From Paragemmobacter kunshanensis (lineage in GTDB: Bacteria; Pseudomonadota; Alphaproteobacteria; Rhodobacterales; Rhodobacteraceae), in the NCBI RefSeq assembly GCF_011059185.1, contig NZ_JAALFE010000014.1, positions 1 through 64,000 of the forward strand: a DNA stretch of 64,000 nucleotides. Reading direction: 5' to 3'. Numbering within the stretch: position 1 is the stretch's first letter; each line of letters starts with the position of its first letter. The notes below the pieces were generated by a model that was not told the origin of the DNA, did not search any database, and saw nothing but the letters and a program-made list of their open reading frames with translations. Below are positions 3,550 to 5,422 of the stretch, one piece after another. The position numbers and the translations under genes were made by a program.

Positions 3550-4974
3550 TCACACCAACCCCTCCAGCTTCGCGGCATCGAATCCCGGTCCGGGCAACAG
3601 CTCCACCCCCGCCTTCGACATCCGCACCTCCACCCCCGCCGCGAGCAATCCCGCCTTCATCGCATCGACCGGCGCGAAATCCTTCGTAGCCATCGCAGCC
3701 TCCCGCATCGCGGCCAAATTGGCCGCATAAGGCTTCAAAAGCTGCATTGCCGAGTCCCTTACTTCGATACGCTGTTCAAGTTGCGCGAAGCTCAATATGC
3801 CAAGGAAGTCCAGGTTCCGCGCAAGGTCATCGTAACGCGCCGTGTTGGCCAAATTCTCCAACGCAACAAGGGCCGCATGAGTGTTCAGATCATCCGCTAG
3901 TGCAGCAACGATCACGTCGTCCGGCTGCAGGTCTTTAGCCTTTTCGAGATTCCCAAATTGAGCAACAAGCCTGACAAAGTCGTCAAGCTTGGACGACGCG
4001 CCTGCCGCTTTCTCCGCCGTCCAATCCATCGGCCGCCCGTAATGCGTGCCCAGAAAGACGAAGCGGATCACTTCCCCCGGCACGCCCTTCTCCAGCAGAT
4101 CCCGCACGGTGAAGAAATTGCCCAAAGACTTGGACATCTTCTTCCCCTCGACCTGCAACATCTCGTTATGCATCCAGACCCGCGCGAATTCCGCCTCCGG
4201 ATGGGCGCAGCAGCTTTGCGCCACCTCGTTCTCGTGATGCGGGAATTGCAGGTCGATCCCGCCGCCATGGATGTCGAAACTCGCCCCCAAGAGCGCCAAG
4301 GACATGGCCGAGCATTCGATATGCCACCCCGGCCGCCCCCGGCCCCACGGGCTCTCCCATCCCGGCAGGCTGTCATCCGACGGCTTCCACAGTACGAAAT
4401 CCATCGGGTCTTCCTTGAAGGGCGCCACCTCGACCCGCGCGCCCGCGATCATGTCATCGACCGACCGCCCCGAAAGCCGCCCGTATTCCGCAAAGGACCG
4501 CACCCGGAACAGCACATGCCCCTCCTTGGCATAGGCATGCCCCCCCTCGATCAGCGCCCCGATCATCGCGATCATCTGCCCCACATAGGCCGTGGCCCGC
4601 GGCTCATGCGTGGGCCGCAGCGCGCCCAGGGCATCCATGTCGTCGTGATACCAGCGGATCGTCTCTTCCGTCCGCTCGGCGATCAGGTCCTCAAGGCTCC
4701 CCGCCGCCCCCGCCTCCTTCCGCGCCAAGGCCGTCGCGTTGATCTTGTCATCCACATCGGTGAAGTTGCGCACATAGGTCACATGCCCCGCGCCATAGAC
4801 ATGGCGCAGCAGGCGGAACAGCGTGTCGAAGACGACGACAGGCCGCGCATTGCCCAGATGCGCCCGGTCATAGACCGTCGGCCCGCAGACATAGACGCGC
4901 ACATTCCCCGGGTCGATGGGGACAAACTCCTCCTTCACCCGCGTCCTGGAATTGTGCAGCCGGATCGTCACCAT
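3550..4974 (-). CDS. cysS: Cysteinyl-tRNA synthetase
   Basis: 474 residues; charges tRNA-Cys in the cytoplasm. The class I HIGH motif is HLGN (39-42) next to CGPTVYDRA. The KMSKS loop is [12 protein letters not shown] (279-283). Zinc ligands typical of CysRS are Cys30, Cys221 (ECSAMS) and the HHENE segment (246-250). ATG at 4974 is chosen because MVTIRLHNS is the conserved N terminus and GGGGAAGG lies just upstream. The leader carries a Cys-codon open frame and a 13-bp tandem repeat. The C-terminal part (about 3721-3960) is only about 53% GC by my count, against about two thirds in the flanking gene body, with less typical codons. This could mean recombination within the gene. Confidence 0.96.
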
Positions 4975-4989
4975 GTCGCCTTCCCCAAT

Positions 4990-5028
4990 ATCTGGCCCCA
5001 AAATCCGGCCCCAAGATCTGGCCCCGAA
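4990..5028. repeat. Three tandem 13-bp repeats in the cysS leader
   Basis: On the plus strand: ATCTGGCCCCAAA, ATCCGGCCCCAAG, ATCTGGCCCCGAA, exactly in phase. A degenerate fourth unit merges into the ribosome-binding site of cysS (start 4974). Copy-number change would move the site relative to the upstream leader frame. Confidence 0.75.
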
Positions 5029-5042
5029 GAGGCAGCGCAAGG

Positions 5043-5130
5043 CCCGCCATGCCGTTCCCGGCGCGGGTCTGTCAACTTCGTCTGTTCGTGGGAACAAGAA
5101 GAAGGCCCGCGCGACCAATGGTCAGCGGGT
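5043..5130 (-). promoter_or_regulatory. Candidate cysteine-responsive attenuator of cysS
   Basis: On the minus strand, hairpin 1 pairs CCCGC (5129-5125) with GCGGG (5110-5106) around an inner GACC-ATT-GGTC. It overlaps the stop of the Cys-rich leader frame and is followed by UUCUUCUUGUU. An alternative pairs GCGCGGG (5112-5106) with CCCGCGC (5067-5061). A third uses that same CCCGC with GCGGG (5047-5043) around GCCG-GGAA-CGGC. The three share arms and exclude each other, as attenuators do. No perfect U-tract terminator is present, so the mechanism (termination or translation control) is inferred. Confidence 0.45.
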
Positions 5131-5166
5131 AATGCAGCAGCAGCCGATGATGCCCTTCATGCTCAT
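5122..5166 (-). CDS. Cys-Cys-Cys leader peptide upstream of cysS
   Basis: ATG at 5166 opens a 14-codon frame, MSMKGIIGCCCITR, then TGA. Three successive TGC codons are followed by three codons and the stop, the layout of known amino-acid leader peptides such as TrpL (Trp codons near the stop). It lies 147 bases upstream of cysS on the same strand, and the downstream RNA can form competing hairpins. The obvious reading is a sensor of charged tRNA-Cys that controls the enzyme charging that tRNA. Weak points: I see no strong ribosome-binding site, and no TSS data are available. It might be translated leaderless. Confidence 0.5.
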   Translation of the reverse strand: MSMKGIIGCCCITR

Positions 5167-5422
5167 GGCCCATCGCTACAACCATTCCGGGGGCCTGCCA
5201 AGCCCAAGTTTCGGGGGCAGAAGCCGCGATTCGCGGCCTGTGGTTAACGTTAAGATTTCCGTCGCCCGCCGTGCGCCGCGTGCATACGCCCGTCTGCACT
5301 GCGCGCCTGCACCGGCCGCTGCATCGCCGGATTGCCCTAACCCCCTGAATCAACGCAGCAACCGCCCCTTGCAGCCAGACGCGCCGCCTGATCAAGTCAG
5401 CTTCGGGAAGAGGGGGGAATTC
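5167..5422. promoter_or_regulatory. Divergent control region between cysS leader and decarboxylase
   Basis: The whole gene-free gap between cysS and the decarboxylase is 4975-5422. The part beyond the leader frame must hold both promoters. Visible items are the palindrome TTAACGTTAA (5244-5253), a hairpin GCCGCGA-T-TCGCGGC (5223-5237), and an AGGGGGG ribosome site (5411-5417) for the decarboxylase. No confident -35/-10 pair could be picked for either direction. Confidence 0.4.

Follow-up and report, generated by a model that had tools for sequence, protein, structure and literature searches.

A predicted cysteine attenuator with a probable leaderless start ahead of cysS in Rhodobacterales

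The DNA analysed here, a stretch of 64,000 nucleotides from Paragemmobacter kunshanensis (hereafter the window), carries a short frame with tandem Cys codons and a set of alternative helices ahead of cysS. Comparison with related loci indicates that they form a real and widely conserved cis element, which is very probably functional and whose best reading is the published one: we consider it likely to be a cysteine attenuator of cysS that works through the ribosome and belongs to the motif uORFC-8-2. Comparative support extends to the frame and the spacing of promoter boxes relative to its ATG, to three helices and to the motif of a second promoter, P2. In the excerpted text of the 2021 paper on uORFC-8-2 (PMC8632094), 145 unique examples are reported, exclusively ahead of cysS in Rhodobacterales. 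The motif combines stems and a 3' U-run with an AUG frame whose tandem Cys codons are predominantly UGC, and attenuation via uncharged tRNA-Cys is proposed there as a prediction. An earlier note on this DNA had known of no described cysteine attenuator ahead of cysS in the group; since uORFC-8-2 was predicted in 2021, this claim of novelty fails and the mechanism put forward is the published proposal. Among the titles and abstract openings listed in the literature search, this one prediction was found for Rhodobacterales cysS, and no experimental test.

The 14-codon frame with TGC-TGC-TGC that the earlier note placed on the cysS strand is present at 5166-5122 (Table 1). The gene that follows, starting at 4974, is identified as cysteine--tRNA ligase by the TIGR00435 equivalog model (405.8 bits for a cut-off of 340), and the leader Cys codons thus fit the product of the downstream gene. 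The distance from the leader stop to cysS is 147 nt in the window and 107 nt in the congeners L093, L103 and L104. A tandem repeat with a 13-bp unit (3.3 copies, 86% matches) occupies 4983-5025, between arm 3 and cysS. On the far side of the intergenic region lies a divergent gene whose product is similar to PLP-dependent decarboxylases, below the curated cut-offs. A search of Rfam 15 returned nothing relevant matching at the leader.

Table 1. Coordinates of the predicted features of the cysS leader region in the window.
Feature	Position	Strand	Remarks
Putative P1 promoter, -35 box TTGGCA	5196..5201	minus	17-nt spacer to -10 box; T at -35 in 91% of 82 ATG-aligned loci
Putative P1 promoter, -10 box TAGCGA	5173..5178	minus	6 nt ahead of ATG; 2/6 letters of E. 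coli consensus
Leader ORF MSMKGIIGCCCITR	5122..5166	minus	predicted leaderless; 14 codons, ATG at 5166, stop TGA 5124-5122
Closing stem P0, 5' strand (leader nt 3-15)	5152..5164	minus	fold of truncated leader and swap tests
Three TGC codons of leader (codons 9-11)	5142-5134	minus	
Arm 1 of hairpin 1:2 (last leader codons and stop)	5120..5129	minus	
Arm 2, common to hairpins 1:2 and 2:3	5106..5116	minus	
Closing stem P0, 3' strand	5092..5106	minus	largely the U-rich segment behind arm 2
U-rich tract, candidate termination or pause zone	5091..5103	minus	T-rich with frame; weak terminator score
P2, -35-like box TTCCCA	5089..5094	minus	TT at fixed distance in 96-97% of 119 aligned loci
P2, -10-like box CAGACC	5066..5071	minus	TAGACC in close congeners; window among 16/135 loci without TA
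Arm 3 CCCGCGC, partner of arm 2 in predicted antiterminator	5061..5067	minus	
cysS, cysteine--tRNA ligase, 474 aa	3550..4974	minus	TIGR00435

We read 117 regions upstream of cysS: 80 loci found by CysS similarity, 36 from genomes of relatives, and the window. In the alignment of Rhodobacteraceae cysS upstream regions, which the earlier note had proposed, the short Cys-codon frame is conserved (82 of the 117 regions; 252 of the 292 genomes of the order by covariance model) and stems 1:2 and 2:3 covary. All 82 frames belong to the 104 family-level regions (family members or records found with them), and none to the 13 outside. These counts derive from a script that named an ORF in 94 of the 117 regions, of which 12 were then removed by hand as unrelated (L009, L036, L041, L049, L063, L083, L112, L114, L115, L116, L118 and L121). 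L008 and L090 are one genome, and L070 and L081 end at a contig edge; L080 was excluded from the peptide counts, and L034, L040, L043, L080 and L086 from the helix tests. Among the congeners read, 13 of 17 have the frame and 4 of 17 lack it.

Alignment A1 comprises 75 of the 82 frame-bearing loci, and the covariance model R1 was built from 75 loci with the window in its seed; the window is a full-length match to the model of which it is part. R1 matches were obtained in 105 of the 113 genera of the order, and second matches, seen in 23 genomes, are all weak (best E 6.9e-4). The 30 best matches all lie directly ahead of cysS, as read from the listed positions. Sixty loci, one per genus, were fetched from the stronger matches listed: all 60 adjoin the cysS N-terminus on its upstream side and all 60 carry an in-frame ORF of 42, 45 or 48 nt, the model itself being blind to reading frame. 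Seven of them repeat a seed locus; the other 53 form a held-out set, non-identical to any seed locus over the leader and near flanks, with genera that overlap those of the seed.

This held-out part is the fair test of the peptide, because the 81 seed peptides were chosen by a score favouring Cys. Each of the 53 held-out peptides contains 2-4 Cys, 41 have an adjacent Cys pair, and Ile stands at -3 in all. Over the whole set of 134 peptides, 77% have Cys at -4, 75% have it at -5 and 97% have Ile at -3, and residues -6 to -10 are variable. The last CC pair starts at residue 9 (46 peptides), 10 (39), 8 (6), 11 (5), 7 (2), 5 (1) or 14 (1), no pair being present in 34; 8 of the 134 have one Cys only. 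The Cys codons of 135 loci are TGC in 366 cases and TGT in 27, and the AT-rich relative L085 shows the same layout with TGT codons and a TAA stop. The Ile codon at -3 from the stop is ATT in 123 of 134 leaders; all leader Ile codons together are 279 ATT and 223 ATC.

Gap-free alignment of the 82 loci on the leader ATG revealed -35 and -10 boxes at constant distance and a C at -1 in 83%. The same pattern recurs in the 53 held-out loci, 91% of which have C at -1, and a pyrimidine occupies -1 in 131 of 135 loci. In the window, the layout is TTGGCA-17-TAGCGA-6-ATG. Both P1 boxes were found at the expected place, with a tolerance of 1-4 nt, in 116 of 135 loci (43 of the 53 held-out ones), while eight shifted anchors used as a control gave both boxes in 0-1 of 135 loci. 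A generic sigma-70 scan of 4900-5300 found no promoter, because conservation of the P1 -10 box is mostly confined to its TA. Shine-Dalgarno-like pairing was detected for 20 of 135 leaders versus 52 of 70 cysS starts. This geometry suggests that the A of the leader ATG is probably the first transcribed nucleotide, i.e. that the frame is leaderless. The earlier note was right to list the lack of a clear ribosome site for the leader as a weak point, and a leaderless start is the probable reason for it.

Three hairpins with common arms had been drawn in the earlier note. Hairpin 1:2 (5129-5106, CCCGCTGACC pairing with GGTC-GCGCGGG) and the alternative hairpin 2:3 (5112-5061, GCGCGGG with CCCGCGC) indeed share an arm and overlap at 5112-5106. 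A third hairpin, 5067-5043, can be drawn but is without comparative support: arm 3 with its downstream sequence gave z +2.2 (65 loci) and +1.3 (49 loci). These values come from a swap test, in which the pairing energy of true partners is compared with that of partners exchanged between loci, and which was repeated on redundancy-filtered sets. With 77, 56, 40, 23 and 7 loci, arm 1:arm 2 gave z -12.5, -10.6, -8.8, -6.2 and -3.8, arm 2:arm 3 gave -2.4, -3.3, -2.7, -2.2 and -1.7, and the closing stem P0 gave -10.4, -9.2, -8.0, -6.4 and -3.0. Swapped P0 partners were as good as the true ones in 0 of 5000 trials in the sets of 77, 56, 40 and 23 loci and in 13 of 5000 in that of 7. The held-out loci (53, 25 and 10) behave alike, with z -7.1, -5.0 and -3.2 for P0 (0 of 5000 at 53), -7.4, -5.1 and -4.1 for 1:2, and -3.3, -2.2 and -3.1 for 2:3, three control pairings lying between -0.6 and +2.4. 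In these comparisons, 1:2 and 2:3 are thus mutually exclusive helices on arm 2 that both covary, 2:3 being the weaker.

Among the swap-test controls, no pairing signal was seen for the leader start with arm 3 (z +0.7 to +3.3) or for arm 1 with the post-arm-2 segment (+0.2 to +1.9). Two others lean slightly in the direction of P0: the Cys region with the post-arm-2 segment (z -1.3 to -2.1) and upstream DNA with the same segment (-0.2 to -1.6). In the first version of the P0 test, the median per-locus rank was 0.30 and 5% of loci fell below 0.05, so that the P0 signal sits in the mean over loci and not in each locus. Minimum-energy folding gave P0 in 129 of 131 loci but also in 105-117 of 131 with swapped tails, and folding alone is therefore weak evidence for this stem. 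In the sequences compared, the N-terminus of the peptide varies, following P0 pairing. Aligned cells are paired at 88.4% for 1:2 and 83.0% for 2:3, with 0 of 500 shuffles each, the shuffles leaving some relatedness; at one outer pair of 2:3, 30 of 75 loci have C-G and 22 have G-C. RNAalifold on a MAFFT alignment returned no consensus structure (0 pairs). A hairpin within the Cys codons is weak (z -1.9 in 133 loci, -2.6 in 51).

The U-rich run that the earlier note placed after hairpin 1:2 is real (5103-5091) but weak: a consensus terminator scan of 4900-5300 found 0 terminator-like sites (shuffles 0.3). By terminator score, hairpin 1:2 has a median of -33.9 and exceeds 0 in 3 of 111 loci, and the P0-closed structure has a median of -22.4 and exceeds 0 in 0 of 130; the E. 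coli trp attenuator reaches +42.8 by the same formula, in which GC-rich Rhodobacterales terminators are uncalibrated. The other admitted weak point of the note, the imperfect terminator, therefore stands. Over the eight nucleotides preceding the P2 -35 box, T makes up 503 of 952 positions (0.53, 119 loci) when the frame is present and 22 of 88 (0.25, 11 loci) when it is absent, an excess that may stem, at least partly, from P0 pairing instead of from a terminator. Termination or pausing within the tract appears likely.

We then considered how a ribosome could shift the balance between the helices, modelling it as covering 12 nt from the A-site codon onward, the footprint generally taken. In RNA extending to 14 nt past arm 2, 1:2 forms in 119 of 130 loci. 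When the RNA reaches the end of arm 3 with no ribosome, 2:3 forms in 95 and 1:2 in 38 of 130 loci; ribosome-free RNA thus prefers 2:3, and 1:2 must be transient and act during transcription. Placing the A site on the first Cys codon among the last seven yields 2:3 in 123 of 130 loci and 1:2 in 11; on the last Cys codon, the numbers are 129 and 0. A ribosome with its A site on the stop codon also masks arm 1, giving 2:3 in 128 and 1:2 in 0 of 130 loci, so that the off state needs its release before RNA polymerase passes. The distance from the leader to the U-tract is only ~75 nt, which is tight for a ribosome to catch up.

For the predicted response to cysteine, we propose that the P1 transcript would begin at the A of the leader ATG and that a 70S ribosome would initiate on this leaderless message. 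With ample Cys-tRNA, the ribosome would complete the leader and depart, and arm 1 would pair with arm 2; P0 would close over 1:2 by joining the first leader codons to the segment behind arm 2, giving a three-way junction, and in the U-rich tract behind it RNA polymerase would stop or pause. When Cys-tRNA is short, the ribosome would wait on the Cys codons, covering arm 1 and part of P0, and the free arm 2 would pair with arm 3, transcription continuing into cysS. P2, which overlaps the U-tract and arm 3, would give basal cysS expression regardless, in a putative division of labour with P1. Stalling by uncharged tRNA-Cys predicts a conserved Cys-codon frame and exclusive helices ahead of cysS, as seen. 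The central idea of the earlier note, control of cysS by tRNA-Cys stalling, is accordingly borne out as far as the Cys-codon frame at the stop, the exclusive helices and the presence of cysS next in every strong match read are concerned; the poor terminator scores speak against it.

A further reading, which we hold tentatively, is that one 5' end does three jobs: the start codon would be the transcription start, the first codons would close the three-way-junction terminator, and the Cys codons would sense. Initiating, stalled and absent ribosomes would then lead to different RNA shapes, in a device laid over an independent cysS promoter and losable without touching it. If the leaderless layout and the closing stem hold, the element would offer a compact test of how a ribosome at the 5' end acts on RNA polymerase within ~75 nt.

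That cysS has its own promoter is suggested by a second conserved motif. A TA element is found at the right distance ahead of cysS in 119 of 135 frame-bearing loci, and alignment on it shows TT 23 nt upstream in 96-97% and TG just ahead in 88-94%, i.e. TTTYCA-17-TAAGCC with an extended -10. We searched for this motif by a shuffle test in 16 of the 22 family-level frame-less loci: it is retained in 12 of the 16 (0 of 500 shuffles each), among them L075, which still has the arms. The exceptions are L055, where it is weak (31 of 500 shuffles), and three Paracoccus loci without it. These data suggest that P2 is independent of the attenuator while overlapping the element, and that part of the conserved U-run is the P2 -35 box. 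P2 may be weakened in loci without the TA, e.g. by CAGACC in the window. Several Sulfitobacter and Roseobacter loci are also without the P2 TA element. In the genus of the window, the leader and arms are gone from 4 of 17 genomes (L008/L090, L094, L098 and L100), where the cysS-proximal promoter motif is retained. Such an arrangement, in which the switch overlaps a separate promoter, would account for its loss without loss of cysS expression.

Several other explanations have to be weighed. The poor terminator scores, found alongside a conserved frame and helices and an arm 2-arm 3 stretch that begins pyrimidine-rich, would also agree with a Cys leader that senses Cys-tRNA but sets P1 readthrough through RNA polymerase pausing with Rho or through altered RNA decay. 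We regard such a non-intrinsic output as unlikely, given that the T content of the tract goes up with the frame, though P0 pairing could explain this rise. Control of translation, by a downstream hairpin that hides the cysS ribosome site unless a ribosome stalls, would require pairings that the comparison disfavours. The window and close congeners can fold a hairpin behind arm 3 (5067-5043 in the window), yet arm 3 with the downstream sequence does worse than with swapped partners, and arms 1-3, the loop and the leader start showed no significant pairing with the cysS Shine-Dalgarno region (z -1.2 to +3.5). Only the post-arm-2 segment pairs weakly with that region (z -2.6 in 65 loci, -1.6 in 49), and we hold this explanation to be scarcely credible.

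The near-constant Ile at -3, mostly ATT, and the 34 of 134 peptides with no adjacent Cys pair could point to a nascent peptide (Ile-Ile-x-Cys-Cys-Ile) that arrests the ribosome in response to something other than Cys-tRNA charging. This is very unlikely in view of the variable residues -6 to -10, the at least two Cys in each of the 53 held-out peptides and a downstream gene whose product charges tRNA-Cys. Action of the leader RNA or peptide mainly in trans has a precedent in rnTrpL and peTrpL of Sinorhizobium, a leaderless attenuator RNA and a 14-aa peptide (excerpted text of PMC7298713), and would be compatible with attenuation. We judge it highly improbable as the main mode of action: cysS is next in all matches read and the arms pair with cysS-proximal sequence, both pointing to action in cis, and the N-terminus of the peptide is variable and tracks P0 pairing. 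Finally, the conserved block could be mostly the P2 promoter, with the frame and hairpins incidental, as 12 of 16 frame-less loci retain the motif and the P2 -35 box forms part of the conserved T-run. The covariation tests, in which the frame, the P1 boxes, P0, 1:2 and 2:3 are each under their own constraint, make this the least probable of the explanations considered.

The attenuator reading may extend beyond the family. In 289 genomes of the class, the strong matches to the model (4) are all in the family, and 7 weak ones lie outside. Six of these 7 were checked: one (G370) is ahead of cysS, with the leader M(M)SNAHTIFICPIICR, and 5 are without cysS within 1.5 kb. In the order of G434, 3 of 4 loci (one genus) were readable, and all of them have a frame ending CICCTIIIS; two of these leaders were folded (L241 and L252), and in both the leader start closes on a segment behind a second hairpin. 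The order of G429 was sampled by 4 genomes from three genera of a single family; cysS was matched at 3 loci, and each of these has a Cys-rich frame that looks Shine-Dalgarno-led, not leaderless. Altogether, Cys-rich short frames ahead of cysS were seen in three other alphaproteobacterial orders (L241, L252 and L253; L242, L255 and L256; L223). A Neomegalonema MAG, L080, has MKTAFAIIGCCIIR, and in another, L079, the script found none; by eye, the Cys leader of L080 is followed by a different, longer inverted repeat. Over 86 out-of-family loci, Cys-rich short ORFs ahead of cysS are not enriched (14, compared with 7 antisense and a mean of 9.5 in shuffles, 20 runs, range 4-14). The cases outside the order rest on relatives and are to be taken as leads. 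Leaders of this Cys-rich type occur ahead of cysS in a few other orders, and some of them can fold a closing stem; the design may therefore be ancient within the class or may have evolved repeatedly.

Control of an aminoacyl-tRNA synthetase by a leader peptide is known from E. coli pheST. The polycysteine short ORFs of mycobacteria reportedly precede sulfur-metabolism operons, not cysS. Like the leader predicted here, those ORFs, from another phylum, are leaderless with contiguous Cys codons, and they act as cysteine-responsive attenuators (Canestrari 2020, as described in the excerpted text of PMC9031893). Closer in phylogeny is the alphaproteobacterial trpL of Sinorhizobium meliloti: according to the excerpted text of PMC7298713, its RNA begins at the leader ATG, the frame of 14 codons includes regulatory codons in a row, and two exclusive structures exist. 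We predict the same leaderless 14-codon layout for cysS. The trpL attenuator differs in its Trp codons, in preceding trpE(G), in that attenuation is experimentally known and in that RNA and peptide act in trans.

The closest counterpart remains uORFC-8-2, with which the window shares its place directly ahead of cysS, an AUG frame and tandem Cys codons with UGC dominant, as far as the excerpted text of PMC8632094 describes the motif. In that text, the tandem Cys codons are usually 14 and 15, whereas they are 9-11 in the window and the last CC of its relatives is mostly at 9 or 10 (85 of 134); we take this mismatch as a numbering difference, the place being the same, and 'usually' as a tendency, not a strict criterion. 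The same text gives two stems, of which the first contains the Cys codons, plus a U-run at the end; here 1:2 is strong, the Cys-codon hairpin is weak, and a U-run is present with a poor terminator score. The text mentions a third base-paired region as rare and without covariation; P0 fits this region, and here it covaries. The passages excerpted make no mention of a leaderless start or of a cysS-proximal promoter. Additions to the published motif are thus the probable leaderless start, a closing stem that covaries, a putative second promoter overlapping the element, and the leads outside the order, the first three of which look new.
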